Assembly (NCBI GenBank): GCA_021296135.1
Contig: JAGWAZ010000016.1
Location: 701 to 34,557, forward strand
From: Chlorobiota bacterium
GTDB lineage: Bacteria; Bacteroidota; Ignavibacteria; OLB7
DNA: 33,857 bases
Direction of reading: 5' to 3'
The position numbers and the translations under genes are program-made. Under the pieces are notes generated by a model that was not told where the DNA came from, searched no databases, and saw only the letters and a program-made list of their open reading frames with translations. Below are positions 26,821 through 33,857 of this stretch, piece by piece. The number at the start of each line of letters is the position of its first letter. Position 1 is the stretch's first letter.

Positions 26821-27124
26821 GAAGGGCAGAGCCGGGTGGAAGCCTCAGAGCGGTTATCATCGACGGAGTCCCGCAAAGACAACAGTCTCACGGTACAAGC
26901 CGATATTTGCAGGAGAGGTACATAGCGGAGTCCTCGAGAACGAGGTAACGGAGATATTGCTGAAGTGTTCGATTCTCAACCGGATGACCGCCCTTGGAAT
27001 GCCGCAGAGCTTCGCGGTCGGATGAGAGATGCTCTGCATTGCGAGGGAGGGGTATTGTATGAGTTATGTTCTCGTGCAACAACGTCTCCTTGAATCATAG
27101 AAGTCCGATTAACTTCCCCGGCTG
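26821..27124. other. Unassigned intergenic DNA
   Basis: I recognise no intact gene here. Short minus-strand frames (for example one reading NRTLQQYLRYLVLEDSAMYL) may be more decayed accessory sequence upstream of the RHS fragment, but I could not name a family. Confidence 0.4.
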
Positions 27125-27214
27125 AAAAGAAAAAGCCTCCTGATTATGGGCAAGAGGCTTAGAACCCAAATGTTTTCACAACGGAATAATCCTTATTGTG
27201 AATAGCTTCATCTT
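27125..27214 (-). ncRNA. tracrRNA-1
   Basis: Minus-strand RNA upstream of cas9. Its 5' part AAGCTATTCACAA (plus positions 27196-27208) is an anti-repeat that matches the CRISPR repeat at 12 of 13 positions. It is followed by a GGATTATTCC nexus-like hairpin, TTGTGAAAACATT, and a terminator hairpin AGCCTC...GAGGCT followed by TTTTTCTTTT. The layout and the shared core with tracrRNA-2 match type II-C tracrRNAs. The 5' end is estimated from the promoter box at 27221-27228. Confidence 0.85.
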
Positions 27215-27220
27215 GTGAGG

Positions 27221-27228
27221 CAAATATA
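27221..27228 (-). promoter_or_regulatory. Bacteroidota -7 box for tracrRNA-1
   Basis: The minus strand reads TATATTTG, a perfect TAnnTTTG box, about 13 bases before the anti-repeat. A TTTTG that could serve as the -33 element lies 23 bases further upstream, slightly more than the usual spacing. Confidence 0.65.
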
Positions 27229-27265
27229 AAGAAAGAACTATAAAGAAAAAACAAAATCAAAAAAC

Positions 27266-27358
27266 GTGAAGAAAATTTTAGGACCGGACATCGGGACGAA
27301 CTCTACCGGCCGGGCATCGGTCGACGAGACAGAGGCTGAGTAGCCGGATGAGAGATCA
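27266..27358 (+). pseudogene. Dead 5' stub of a second cas9
   Basis: From GTG at 27266 the frame reads VKKILGPDIGTNSTGRASVD then ETEAE and a TAG stop at 27341, resuming PDERS before identity fades. The living Cas9 starts MKRILGLDLGTTSIGWALVD, then EADPEKPSERS, so the stub aligns residue for residue across the RuvC-I motif and past the stop. The RuvC-I Asp8 position is kept but neighbouring residues are altered. Many differences are T to C or A to G, making the stub more GC-rich than cas9. It cannot encode more than 25 residues. Confidence 0.82.
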
Positions 27359-27364
27359 AAACAT

Positions 27365-27372
27365 TATCTTTG
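27365..27372 (+). promoter_or_regulatory. Candidate -7 box for the cas operon
   Basis: TATCTTTG, a perfect TAnnTTTG match, lies about 100 bases before the cas9 ATG, placing transcription start near 27379. No clear TTG -33 element is seen at the usual distance, so confidence is moderate. Confidence 0.5.
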
Positions 27373-27418
27373 CAAGTCAAAATATCGGACGAAGGTGGTT
27401 TTGAAGCCGAAGCTTTGG

Positions 27419-27445
27419 CTGTGAATAGTTCCAACTTGTGAAATA
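27419..27445 (-). repeat. Partial third tracrRNA 5' region
   Basis: The minus strand here reads TTTCACAAGTTGGAACTATT then CACAG, matching the tracrRNA-1 5' region (CTCACAAGATGAAGCTATTCACA) with several changes. The nexus and terminator are missing, and the corresponding promoter box is degraded. Together with the cas9 stub it shows that the tracr-5'/cas9-5' junction is duplicated in tandem. Confidence 0.65.
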
Positions 27446-27468
27446 AATACAAACAAAAAAGATTTAGA

Positions 27469-30400
27469 ATGAAAAGGATTTTAGGATTGGATTTAGGGAC
27501 AACTTCTATTGGTTGGGCATTGGTCGACGAAGCCGACCCCGAAAAACCAAGTGAAAGATCATCTATAATCAAGACAGGCGTACGGATCATCCCTTTAACG
27601 GCAGACGAAGAAGATGACTTTCAAAAAGGGAAATCAACTTCTATCAATGCAGATAGAAGAATAAAACGGGGAATGAGAAGAAACCGCCAACGCTACCAGT
27701 TGAGAAGGGGTACGCTCATCGAACTATTAAAAGAACACGGAATTATCTCGGATGAAACCGTCTTAGCGGAAAGTGGAAAAGATACTACCCATTCGCTTTT
27801 GGGATTGCGCACTAAAGCCGCTTCAGAAAGGATCGATCTTGAAGACTTTGCCCGTGTATTGCTGGCGATTAACAAAAAACGCGGTTACAAAAGCAACCGA
27901 AAAGCCAAAGACGAAGAAGACGGACAAGCTATTGACGGAATGGAAGTTGCGGTACAATTGTTTGAGCAAAACCGAACGCCCGGGCAACTGGTTTTGGAAA
28001 GATTAAAAGACGGTAAAAAGCTCATTCCTGACTTTTACCGTTCAGACCTTCAGTCGGAATTCGATAAGATATGGAATGCTCAAAGAACATTTTACCCGAC
28101 TATTCTGACCGACAAGCTGAAAGAAGAACTCGAAGGGAAAAATATAAAACAAACCTGGGCTATCTGCAAAGAACCCTTTGGAATTCAAGGAATAAAACGA
28201 ACCGGTAAGAAGGAAGAACAAAAACTTGAAAATTACCGCTGGCGAAATGACGGATTAGAACAACAGCTTGATCCGGAACATCTGGCTATTGTACTTCAGG
28301 AGATTAACGGACAGATCAGTAGTTCCAGCGGTTATCTCGGAGCGATCAGTGACCGGAGTAAAGAACTTTATTTCAACAAACAGACAGTTGGGCAATATCT
28401 CTATGGCCGATTAGAGAAGGATCCGCATATCCGATTGAAAAACCAGGTCTTTTATCGGCAGGATTATTTGGACGAGTTTGAAAAAATATGGAAAACACAG
28501 GCGCAATATCATAAAGAACTCACTCCTGAATTGAAAGCGGAAATAAGAGATACGATCATTTTCTATCAGCGCAGGCTAAAATCTCAAAAGGGATTGATCG
28601 GCATTTGCGAATTGGAGGGGAAAGAAGTGGAAATTGTAGTTGATGGCAAGAAGAAAAAAAAGATCATCGGCCCGAAAGTGTGCCCGAAGTCTTCGCCGCT
28701 TTTTCAGGAATTCAAGATTTGGCAAAAACTGAACGACCTGGAATTCAGAAACACTGAAACCAAAGAAAAATATGCAATATCTTTCTTTGATGAAGATCTG
28801 GAATTGCGAAACCTTCTGTTTGAAGAACTGAATGTAAAAGGCAATATATCCGAAGCAACGATCCTGAAAGAGGCAGGACTAAATAAAAAAGAAGGATGGG
28901 AGATCAATTTCAAAAAGGGGATCGACGGTAATAAAACCAATGAGTCCTTATACAAAGCCTACGCAAAAATCCTGGAACTGTCCGGCCATGAATTGAATTT
29001 CAAAATGCCTGCTCAGCAAATTAAAGAAGCTGTAAGAAAGGTCCTTACCATGCTAGGCATAAATACGGAAATTCTTGATTTCAATGCGGAATTGGACGGC
29101 AAGGCTTTTGAACAACAACCCGCATACCAGTTGTGGCATCTGCTCTATTCCTACGAAGGCGACGATTCAAAAACCGGTAATGAAAAACTGTATGAAAAAT
29201 TAGAAAGTAAATTCGGCTTTGCAAAAGAATATGCCAAACCCCTGGCACACATCGTTTTGAAAGACGATTATGGAAGTTTAAGCACCAAGGCGATGCGAAA
29301 GATCATTCCATACCTAAAAGCAGGACATGGATACTCCGAAGCAGCAGCACAGGCAGGATACGATCATTCTCATTCCGAAACCAAAGAGGAACGGGAAAAT
29401 AAAATACTGGAAGACAAATTGGAGTTATTGCCCAAAAACAGCTTGCGGAACCCCGTTGTGGAGAAGATTCTAAACCAGATGGTCAATGTCGTTAATGCGA
29501 TCATGGACACGTACGGTAAGCCGGATGAAGTTCGGATCGAACTGGCGAGGGAGTTGAAAAAGAGCGCCGAAGAACGAAAGGAGATGACAACAGCCATAAA
29601 TAATGCCAATAAGAAACACGACGAAATACGAAAAGAAATAGACTCTCTGTATCCGTTCAATACCGGAGTGCGTATTACGCGAAACGATATTATAAAATAT
29701 AAACTGTATGAAGAACTGGAAGGCAATGGCTATCGCACCCTTTATACCGACACCTACGTTTGTCGGGAAAAGCTCTTTTCGAAAGAATTTGACGTAGAAC
29801 ACATTATCCCCAAAGCCAAACTGTTTGATGATTCATTCTCCAACAAAACGCTTTCCACCCGGGATTTCAATCTCTTTAAAGGCGATAAAACCGGAATCGA
29901 TGCGGTGGCGGAAAAATATGGCGAGGAAAGCGAGGAATATGATAATTATCTTGCCCGGATCAAGAAATTGTACGAAATAGGGCAAAAGAAACAGAATGGG
30001 CAAAAGGGGATCAGCAAGGCAAAGTACAATAAACTGCAAATGAAGGAAAGCGAGATACCGGACGGATTCATAGAGCGCGACCTTCGCAACACCCAGTATA
30101 TTGCTAAAAAATCACGGGAAATGCTGGCGTCTGTGGTAAGAACTGTTCTTCCAACTACAGGCGGAGTCACCGATAGGTTGCGAAAGGACTGGCAACTGAT
30201 CAATGTATTGCAGGAACTGAATTGGGAGAAATATAAAAAACTGGGATTAACTTATTACGAAAAAAATAAGCACGAAAATCAAATCCCCAAAATAAAAGAC
30301 TGGACAAAACGCAACGATCACCGCCACCATGTGATGGATGCCATAATCGTGGCTTTTACTAAGCGTAGTCATATTCAATACCTGAATAACTTAAATGCAA

Positions 30401-31686
30401 GGAACGATAAATCGAGGAGTATTTACGGCATCGAACAAAACGAAACCTACACCACAATTGACAAAAACGGGGATAAAAAGCGACTGATAAAACCGCCGAT
30501 TCCATTGGATGACTTTAGAGCCGAGGCCCGAAGACATTTGGAAAACACATTGGTTTCTTTCAAAGCAAAAAATAAAATAGTAACGAAAAATAAAAATAAA
30601 ACGAAGAAAAAAGGAGGCGCAAATACCAAGACAGAGTTTACACCACGCGGGCAATTGCACAAAGAAACCGTCTATGGAATGCGATATCGATACGCTACCA
30701 AAATGGAGAAAGTAGGGAGCAAGTTCGATAGAGATAAGATACAGCAGGTAGCCCGAAAGCATTATCGTGAAGCGCTCTTAAAACGGCTGGCGAAGTTTGA
30801 TAACGATCCGAAAAAGGCATTTACGGGTAAAAACGCTCCCGCAAAAAATCCGGTTTATATTGACGAGTATCAATCCGACGTAGTCCCTGAAAAAGTAAAA
30901 TCGGTATCTCCCGAAGCGGAATATACCATTCGAAAAGAGGTCTCTCCCGATTTGAAGGTGGACAAGGTTGTCGATATAGGAGCAAAAAGGGTCTTGCAGA
31001 AAAGACTGGATGAATTCGGCGGTGACGCCAAAAAAGCATTTGCTAATCTGGAAGAAAATCCGATATGGCTCAATAAGGAAAAGGGAATACCGATCAAGCG
31101 GGTGACGATTACCGGAGTAAGCAATGCCATCCCTTTACATACGAAAAAAGATCGTTTTGGAAATGAAGTTTTAGATGATTCTGGCAATCGAATTCCGGTA
31201 GATTATATAAGCACCGGCAACAATCACCACGTAGCGGTGTACAGAGATGAGAAAGGCAATTTGCAGGAAAATGTAGTCTCTTTCTACGAGGCGGTTATTC
31301 GTAAAAACCAAGGCCTTCCGGTAATTGACAAAGATCATAATGCCGATCTCGGCTGGCAGTTTTTGTTTACGATGAAGCAAAACGAGATGTTTGTTTTCCC
31401 AAATGAAGAAACGGGTTTTAATCCCAATGAGATCGATTTAACGGACGAAAATAACTATCATCTGATCAGCCCGAATTTATTTCGGGTGCAGACGTTTTCC
31501 AAAGTCATGTACGGCAACAATGCGGTAAGAGATTATGTATTCAGACATCATCTGGAAACAACAGTGGAAAAAAAGAAGGAACTTAAAACCATTGCCTTTA
31601 AAAACATCAAGAGTTTAGCACCTTTGGAAAATATAGTTAAAGTCCGCATCAACCATCTCGGTCAGATCGTAAAAGTGGGAGAATAA
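27469..31686 (+). CDS. cas9: Cas9, type II-C
   Basis: RNA-guided DNA endonuclease of 1405 residues. RuvC-I is at the N-terminus (RILGLDLGTTSIGWALVDE, Asp8). An Arg-rich bridge helix follows near residues 63-85 (RRIKRGMRRNRQRYQLRRG). RuvC-II is PDEVRIELARELKK, with E691. HNH contains FDVEHIIPKAKLF (D775, H778), with N801 in DFNLFKGDKT. RuvC-III is HRHHVMDAIIVAF (H954, D957). All catalytic residues are present, so it should cut. TPRGQLHKETVYG and later segments lie in the wedge/PAM-interacting region; two related LxKRLxxF-D-KKAF units (about 1103 and 1176) form an internal repeat. Size plus the absence of csn2 and cas4 place it in II-C. It is A-rich and opposite in strand to the host genes, suggesting transfer. 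The next gene begins 2 nt after its TAA. Confidence 0.97.
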   Translation: MKRILGLDLGTTSIGWALVDEADPEKPSERSSIIKTGVRIIPLTADEEDDFQKGKSTSINADRRIKRGMRRNRQRYQLRRGTLIELLKEHGIISDETVLAESGKDTTHSLLGLRTKAASERIDLEDFARVLLAINKKRGYKSNRKAKDEEDGQAIDGMEVAVQLFEQNRTPGQLVLERLKDGKKLIPDFYRSDLQSEFDKIWNAQRTFYPTILTDKLKEELEGKNIKQTWAICKEPFGIQGIKRTGKKEEQKLENYRWRNDGLEQQLDPEHLAIVLQEINGQISSSSGYLGAISDRSKELYFNKQTVGQYLYGRLEKDPHIRLKNQVFYRQDYLDEFEKIWKTQAQYHKELTPELKAEIRDTIIFYQRRLKSQKGLIGICELEGKEVEIVVDGKKKKKIIGPKVCPKSSPLFQEFKIWQKLNDLEFRNTETKEKYAISFFDEDLELRNLLFEELNVKGNISEATILKEAGLNKKEGWEINFKKGIDGNKTNESLYKAYAKILELSGHELNFKMPAQQIKEAVRKVLTMLGINTEILDFNAELDGKAFEQQPAYQLWHLLYSYEGDDSKTGNEKLYEKLESKFGFAKEYAKPLAHIVLKDDYGSLSTKAMRKIIPYLKAGHGYSEAAAQAGYDHSHSETKEERENKILEDKLELLPKNSLRNPVVEKILNQMVNVVNAIMDTYGKPDEVRIELARELKKSAEERKEMTTAINNANKKHDEIRKEIDSLYPFNTGVRITRNDIIKYKLYEELEGNGYRTLYTDTYVCREKLFSKEFDVEHIIPKAKLFDDSFSNKTLSTRDFNLFKGDKTGIDAVAEKYGEESEEYDNYLARIKKLYEIGQKKQNGQKGISKAKYNKLQMKESEIPDGFIERDLRNTQYIAKKSREMLASVVRTVLPTTGGVTDRLRKDWQLINVLQELNWEKYKKLGLTYYEKNKHENQIPKIKDWTKRNDHRHHVMDAIIVAFTKRSHIQYLNNLNARNDKSRSIYGIEQNETYTTIDKNGDKKRLIKPPIPLDDFRAEARRHLENTLVSFKAKNKIVTKNKNKTKKKGGANTKTEFTPRGQLHKETVYGMRYRYATKMEKVGSKFDRDKIQQVARKHYREALLKRLAKFDNDPKKAFTGKNAPAKNPVYIDEYQSDVVPEKVKSVSPEAEYTIRKEVSPDLKVDKVVDIGAKRVLQKRLDEFGGDAKKAFANLEENPIWLNKEKGIPIKRVTITGVSNAIPLHTKKDRFGNEVLDDSGNRIPVDYISTGNNHHVAVYRDEKGNLQENVVSFYEAVIRKNQGLPVIDKDHNADLGWQFLFTMKQNEMFVFPNEETGFNPNEIDLTDENNYHLISPNLFRVQTFSKVMYGNNAVRDYVFRHHLETTVEKKKELKTIAFKNIKSLAPLENIVKVRINHLGQIVKVGE

Positions 31687-31688
31687 AC

Positions 31689-32296
31689 ATGACGCCCCTT
31701 CAACCCGACACTTTCTACCATATATACAACCGCGCAAACGGCAGGGAAAATCTGTTCGATGAAAAGCAGAACTATCATTTCTTTCTGGAGAAGTATAAAA
31801 AGTACATATCGCCCATTGCGGAAACGTGGGCGTACTGTTTGATGCCGAACCATTTTCATTTGTTGGTGGAAATACGGTCGGAAGAAGAATTAAAACGAAG
31901 GAGAAGGAGGAAAACTTTTCCAAAGTTCCAAACTTTGGAAAAGTTGGTATCCAGACAGTTCGCCAACCTATTCAGCTCTTACACCCAGGCGTTTCATAAA
32001 TTATATCAGCGAACCGGATCGCTATTCCAAAAGAACTTTAAAAGAAAAGAGATCGATTCCGGTGAATATCTGACGGAGGCCATATTATACATCCATACCA
32101 ATCCTGTACATCGCGGCGTTACCGATACAATAGACGATCGGTCCCATTTTTCCTATCCGGATGTTGTGTACGGAAAAAATGAATATATAGATTTATCCGC
32201 CTTGATCGATCGTTTCGGGACAAAAGAGCAGTTCGTCGGATGCCACAAAAATAAAACCGCCTGGGAATTGGGATCGGAAATTACTTTGGAAGAAGT

Positions 32297-32300
<4 letters not shown>
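31689..32300 (+). CDS. REP-associated tyrosine transposase (RAYT/Y1 HUH) inside the cas operon
   Basis: Protein of 203 residues of the Y1_Tnp/TnpA_REP family, single-strand DNA endonucleases that cleave next to hairpins using a tyrosine. It begins MTPLQPDTFYHIYNRANGRE, the usual RAYT start. The metal-binding HUH motif is LMPNHFHLLVE (H55, H57), and the likely nucleophile is Tyr98 in FSSYTQAFHKLYQRTGSLFQ. The tail of the core, EAILYIHTNPVHRGV, is also typical. It starts 2 nt after cas9 and overlaps the cas1 start by ATGA, so it is co-transcribed and probably coupled to cas1. Residues 75-86 are encoded by a perfect palindrome. Canonical II-C operons go cas9-cas1-cas2 directly; this gene is extra. 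It may be a passenger or an accessory in adaptation or array processing; the sequence does not decide. Confidence 0.88.
31913..31945 (+). repeat. Perfect 15-bp inverted repeat inside the RAYT gene
   Basis: AACTTTTCCAAAGTT, then CCA, then AACTTTGGAAAAGTT. The arms are exact reverse complements with a three-base loop, like a REP hairpin recognised by RAYT enzymes. It is in frame and encodes the TFPKFQTLEKL stretch. Confidence 0.9.
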
Positions 32301-33527
<1,227 letters not shown>

Positions 33528-33540
33528 AAGTGGCTTGAAA

Positions 33541-33613
33541 TAAAAATGCCCCGTAGAAAGACGAGGCAACTTAATGTTTTCACAACGGAATCATCCTTAT
33601 TGTGATTAGCTTC
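33541..33613 (-). ncRNA. tracrRNA-2
   Basis: Second tracrRNA-like gene, between cas2 and the array. The minus strand reads AAGCTAATCACAA (plus positions 33600-33612), a perfect 13-base match to the end of the CRISPR repeat. It continues with a GGATGATTCC hairpin and GTTGTGAAAACATTAAG, the same core as tracrRNA-1. It ends in a different terminator hairpin, TGCCTCGT...ACGGGGCA, followed by TTTTTATTT. No clear TAnnTTTG box stands at the right place directly upstream, so its 5' end is uncertain. Confidence 0.82.
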
Positions 33614-33674
33614 AAAGTGACATCCAAAAACGGACCTATAACCCATTGACTATAAGCACGTTTTGGCAGGGTCT

Positions 33675-33857
33675 CCTGTGCTAAGGTACAAAATGAAAGC
33701 TAATCACAACATAGAGACTGCAGCCGTTGCTGCACCTACACCTGTGCTAAGGTACAAAATGAAAGCTAATCACAACATCCCGTTGGCGGTATCGGGTCGC
33801 CTTTTGCCTGTGCTAAGGTACAAAATGAAAGCTAATCACAACCGGTAGCCCGGGAAG
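33675..33857 (-). CRISPR. CRISPR array (3 repeats visible, continues past window)
   Basis: Three identical 36-base repeats at 33675-33710, 33741-33776 and 33807-33842, separated by 30-base spacers at 33711-33740 and 33777-33806. A third spacer is cut by the window end. By its fit to both tracrRNAs the crRNA-sense repeat is on the minus strand and begins GTTGTGATTAGCTTTC and ends CCTTAGCACAGG. The array is therefore transcribed toward cas2, and the repeat at 33675 is the last one of the transcript. The leader, if any, lies beyond the window. Spacer targets cannot be judged from the sequence alone. Confidence 0.95.

Follow-up and report, generated by a model that had tools for sequence, protein, structure and literature searches.

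The junction between tracrRNA and cas9 in a type II-C CRISPR-Cas locus was found to occur in two copies, the left of which ends in a dead cas9 5' stub. The stub is best explained, with a probability of about 0.6, as the product of an old local duplication of the tracrRNA-cas9 junction, followed by decay. The window, namely the whole stretch of 33,857 nucleotides that was analyzed, represents the end of a contig (C125) in a 2.86 Mb draft genome of 132 contigs.

Examination of the ORFs found between position 27469 and the CRISPR array revealed live cas9 (27469-31686, plus strand; ATG at 27469), a gene for a REP-associated tyrosine transposase-like protein lying inside the cas operon (31689-32300, plus strand; NF047646, E=2.7e-14, under the curated cut-off), type II cas1 (32297-33199, plus strand; TIGR03639, 299.6 bits; cut-off 120) and cas2 (33189-33527, plus strand; TIGR01573, 69.1 bits; cut-off 24.5), with neither csn2 nor cas4 being found before the contig ends at the array. 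The cas9 product, a type II-C protein of 1,405 residues (NCBIfam TIGR01865, 493.6 bits; cut-off 100), matched both Pfam RuvC_III and HNH_4, as expected of a Cas9 with RuvC and HNH domains, and no other cas9 was found in the whole genome. The array (33675-33844, minus strand) shows three repeats, with the contig ending within it. Cas9 domains, gene content and tracrRNA-repeat pairing all identify the locus as type II-C. An Rfam scan over the locus returned no match, while comparison of the visible array spacers with the window revealed no target near cas9, the longest seed match being 8 nt.

The transposase-like gene has a homolog in 12 of 80 loci, and the window and loci L033, L101, L050, L059, L081, L035, L056, L073 and L075 carry such a gene a short distance downstream of cas9. 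Within the gene lies a perfect palindrome, AACTTTTCCAAAGTT-CCA-AACTTTGGAAAAGTT (31913-31945), the arm pair of which is found again elsewhere in the same genome (C98:165-197). The palindrome is possibly a REP element of the transposase-like gene's product.

As originally predicted, an anti-repeat, an A-rich leader and the start of cas9 were found at 27197-27358 and again from 27419. The anti-repeat, i.e., part of a minus-strand tracrRNA, was detected by motif search twice, relative to 0.00 matches expected; the left copy, delineated by motif and alignment searches, spans 27197-27218, and the right, partial copy spans 27419-27441. The cas9 stub (27266-27358, plus strand) begins with GTG at 27266 and reads for 25 codons up to an in-frame TAG (27341-27343), past which homology continues ungapped to give 31 alignable codons before breaking off sharply at about 27358. 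The earlier count of 13 identical residues among the 20 compared between the stub and live cas9 is correct, and at the DNA level 63 of 93 nt (68%) are identical.

The two copies have undergone reciprocal losses. tracrRNA 1 (27130-27216, minus strand), which overlaps the left anti-repeat copy, consists of the anti-repeat, a conserved core (AATAAGGATTATTCCGTTGTGAAAAC) and a terminator hairpin. Indeed, a single core matching AATAAGGATTATTCCGTTGTGAAAAC is the usual layout, being found in 72 of 77 named relatives just upstream of cas9 and on the opposite strand, the core-to-ATG gap usually being 38-126 nt. Next to tracrRNA 1 lies a -7 element of the Bacteroidota type, TATATTTG (27221-27228, minus strand), the sole minus-strand TAnnTTTG in 26901-27500; its offset from the core, 15, is usual in relatives, 50 of the 72 having such an element. 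This promoter element is present in the left copy only, with the right copy containing neither it nor a tracr core. Because the losses are reciprocal, each copy has kept a single member of a pair of functions whose sequences ordinarily overlap. Both tracrRNA 1 and cas9 are probably still expressed.

A second tracrRNA (tracrRNA 2; 33542-33620, minus strand) lies between cas2 and the array, where it follows the last repeat, and shares a 42-nt block with tracrRNA 1 that is 95% identical. When tracr cores were counted across the phylum (396 genomes) and one family (301 genomes), the genome of the window was alone among about 60 tracr-bearing genomes in having two. The pairing energy with the array repeat is -24.9 kcal/mol for the anti-repeat of tracrRNA 1 and -20.3 kcal/mol for that of tracrRNA 2, the latter tracrRNA being exactly complementary to the GATTAG of the array repeat. 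The array and tracrRNA 2 represent the GATTAG type, as opposed to GAATAG in tracrRNA 1 and the two leader copies, a mismatch suggesting that parts of the locus may differ in history. The last repeat is immediately followed by tracrRNA 2, both being on one strand, and a fold of 33542-33710 is predicted to join the two in one RNA; according to this model, pairing in cis of the repeat with the tracrRNA 2 anti-repeat could yield a single-guide RNA bearing the terminal spacer.

When the stub was compared with the cas9 genes of relatives, the nearest of 73 other sequences proved to be this very cas9; the comparison is one that the original prediction had itself proposed. In a tree of 74 sequences and 136 columns, in which the composition of the stub is unusual, the stub and live cas9 were sisters with support of 99/98 (bootstrap/SH-aLRT) when leader and coding sequence were considered, and of 100/99 with the coding sequence alone. 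Likewise, the top match of the stub by score was live cas9 (33), with the next relative scoring 23. In the product of live cas9, the SIGWA and GVR motifs are separated by 19 residues, as compared to 17 (67 sequences) or 16 (7 sequences) in relatives, none of which has 19; the stub aligns without a gap to live cas9 through codon 31 and so shares the length of this segment. Moreover, both leaders read CTTGTGA, a sequence found within 120 nt of cas9 in none of 77 relatives. Given the sister relation and the sharing of features absent from the 77 relatives, a donor from a different lineage is not needed and duplication is the simpler explanation. Thus, that the stub is a dead and GC-richer cas9 5' end has stood, while the proposed arrival of a cas9 from a different lineage is superfluous. 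Two observations had earlier been named as refuting replacement by another lineage, namely that the stub be closer to this cas9 than to any other and that it show the same phylogenetic age; the former is what was found.

Most of the change separating the two sequences falls on the branch of the stub (0.34 vs. 0.066 for live cas9). The start codon of the stub and residues L7, L9, I14 and W16, all conserved in relatives, are altered, indicative of decay without selection; the stub presumably has no function of its own. The higher GC content of the stub, relative to live cas9, was confirmed, although not its description as arising mainly from T-to-C changes, since the AT-to-GC changes comprise nine A>G and nine T>C. 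At codon positions conserved in relatives, the stub has changed at 6 of 16 A/T sites and at 0 of 14 G/C sites (p=0.019), pointing to decay in the AT-to-GC direction. Such a direction is unusual for a bacterial pseudogene. Of 18 AT-to-GC transitions, 11 fall at third positions, an excess (p=0.014) that a period of translation of the stub would fit. Selection on the live copy was considered as the source of this third-position excess and rejected, given that the tree assigns almost no change to the live branch.

In the course of events proposed, the back-to-back control regions of tracrRNA and cas9, which overlap, would have been copied locally, from within the anti-repeat to cas9 codon 31, with 60 nt of unrelated sequence being placed at the junction between the copies. 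The left copy would then have retained the tracrRNA body and promoter and lost cas9, and the core and promoter of the tracrRNA would have disappeared from the right copy, in which cas9 was retained. As a result, cas9 would have been moved away from the tracrRNA. The filler between the copies (27359-27418; 60 nt) contains TATCTTTG (27365-27372, plus strand), the sole plus-strand TAnnTTTG in 26901-27500, and may provide the current cas9 promoter through this element, a guess, given that no clear upstream element was seen. The possibilities that the filler is a continuation of cas9 (p=0.56) or a degenerate CRISPR repeat were both rejected, as neither similarity was significant. A clean tandem duplication would have extended cas9 into the filler, which was not the case; a continuous tandem unit without filler was not observed, and duplications with inserted filler remain compatible with the sequence.

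The same slot was considered in relatives, where cas9 5' stubs were detected at two other loci, L043 (Paenimyroides aquimaris; nhmmer E=5e-6) and L175 (E=5.8e-9). The 46-nt stub of L175 is identical to its own cas9 at 43 of 46 positions, representing a clear local duplication of a kind similar to that proposed for the window. For the L043 stub, other species provide a closer match than the resident cas9 does, such that replacement may occur elsewhere. At both loci, the stub adjoins a crRNA-like unit, that is, a guide joined to the 5' part of the locus' own repeat. Indeed, tracrRNA-cas9 gaps exceeding 300 nt usually hold such a unit. Units were found in L041, L043, L050, L097, L127, L132, L175 and L176, in most cases with a hairpin and T-run, and no unit was found in the gaps of that length in L080 and L119. 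In L041 (Flavobacterium sp. xlx-214), a tRNA-like sequence was noted by eye between tracrRNA and cas9, beside the crRNA-like unit. The 3' ends of the unit guides match the tracrRNA-to-cas9 region over 7-12 nt, with a combined p of 1.3e-6 relative to guides taken from every other position of the same gaps, for loci chosen because they carry a repeat-like element and among which L097, L132 and L175 are individually weak. In addition, the long gap of L163 (genome G653) contains, at L163:1620-1730, a second tracr core linked, on the same strand, with a repeat and a guide, the last 12 nt of which (TAAATATAGATA) match a site just upstream of cas9. Judged by its sequence, this element is a natural single-guide RNA in a Bacteroidota II-C locus, and the crRNA-like units of these type II-C systems could possibly be RNA-guided autoregulators of cas9. 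The window contains no recognizable unit of this kind: its would-be guide offers a seed match of 5 nt (shuffle p=0.395) and, on reading the sequence after 27441, no hairpin with a T-run was seen. The window as a site of a regulatory crRNA-like unit was, accordingly, rejected.

Local duplication was weighed against three other explanations. In one, a resident, older cas9 was displaced by the copy of a close relative, leaving behind the tracrRNA and the first 31 cas9 codons. Such replacement, the main rival and a possible if doubtful origin, would account for the higher GC content of the stub and its third-position excess, for the GATTAG type of the array and tracrRNA 2 alongside the GAATAG type of tracrRNA 1 and both leaders, and has a potential precedent in the L043 stub, the better matches of which lie in other species and not in the resident cas9. 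However, the sister of the stub is this same cas9 (99/98), so that replacement calls both for a donor nearer than all of the roughly 80 relatives known and for a second junction, which was not seen. No other Cas9 came nearer to live Cas9 than 66% identity, meaning that a donor closer than that is not visible and may have existed among close kin. A search for a closer cas9 in viral contigs and in 396 genomes of the phylum found none, nor was any cas9 match found in four other genomes of the same family; same-family genomes share the rodA-hemA neighborhood. On balance, we infer duplication rather than replacement by close kin.

It is very unlikely that the stub is instead the scar of an event in the tracrRNA-cas9 slot that once gave the window a crRNA-like unit, or left it a degenerate one. 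The stubs of L043 and L175 directly adjoin such units and the element after the filler in the window starts with GCTGTGAA, like the units of L127 and L132; against this stand the seed match of the would-be guide, no longer than expected by shuffling, and the lack of a terminator after the would-be unit. The broader proposal that insertions and duplications recur in this slot in Bacteroidota II-C loci and that RNA-guided autoregulators of cas9 arise there, with the stub of the window being the scar of one such event and perhaps accompanied by a degenerate unit that is now taken for part of the cas9 leader, is quite unlikely. Finally, chance resemblance or an assembly artefact is extremely improbable. 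Local alignment of the copies scored 92, as compared to a shuffle maximum of 52, and nhmmer with a profile of the cas9 5' end found the stub at E=3.4e-8. The draft state of the genome (132 contigs) might leave room for an artefact, but misassembly would yield near-identical copies, and the stub is only 68% identical. Decay following local duplication is thus retained as the preferred reading, with the window serving as a readable example of how duplication can separate control regions that lie back to back, here those of tracrRNA and cas9. As a scar, the stub is rather ordinary and of modest interest; the tracrRNA-cas9 slot is the more interesting subject.

Like other type II-C systems of Bacteroidota, such as Riemerella anatipestifer CRISPR1 (PMC5006608), the locus described here presents a tracr anti-repeat upstream of cas9, together with cas9, cas1, cas2 and an array; the window differs from these systems in its duplicated junction, its dead stub and the second tracrRNA by the array. 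L043 and L175 likewise have a cas9 5' stub in the tracrRNA-cas9 slot, yet theirs adjoin a crRNA-like unit whose seed matches a site upstream of cas9; near identity of stub and resident cas9 was seen in L175 and not in L043. RNAs encoded at a cas locus that steer the effector to a cas promoter are known, namely, tracr-L, the long form of tracrRNA, in type II-A (PMC11417352) and CreR RNAs in types I-B, I-E and V-A (PMC13131331), with regulatory RNAs of such kind having been reviewed for types I and V-A (PMC12737573). A search of a paper library that includes a minority of subscription journals found no such regulatory RNA for the II-C group considered here. The II-C units of the relatives suggest the same idea, in contrast to the window, which is without a recognizable unit. 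These units look like unreported autoregulators that would carry over to type II-C a regulatory principle already described for types I, II-A and V-A, with the natural single-guide RNA of L163 resembling type II-A tracr-L.
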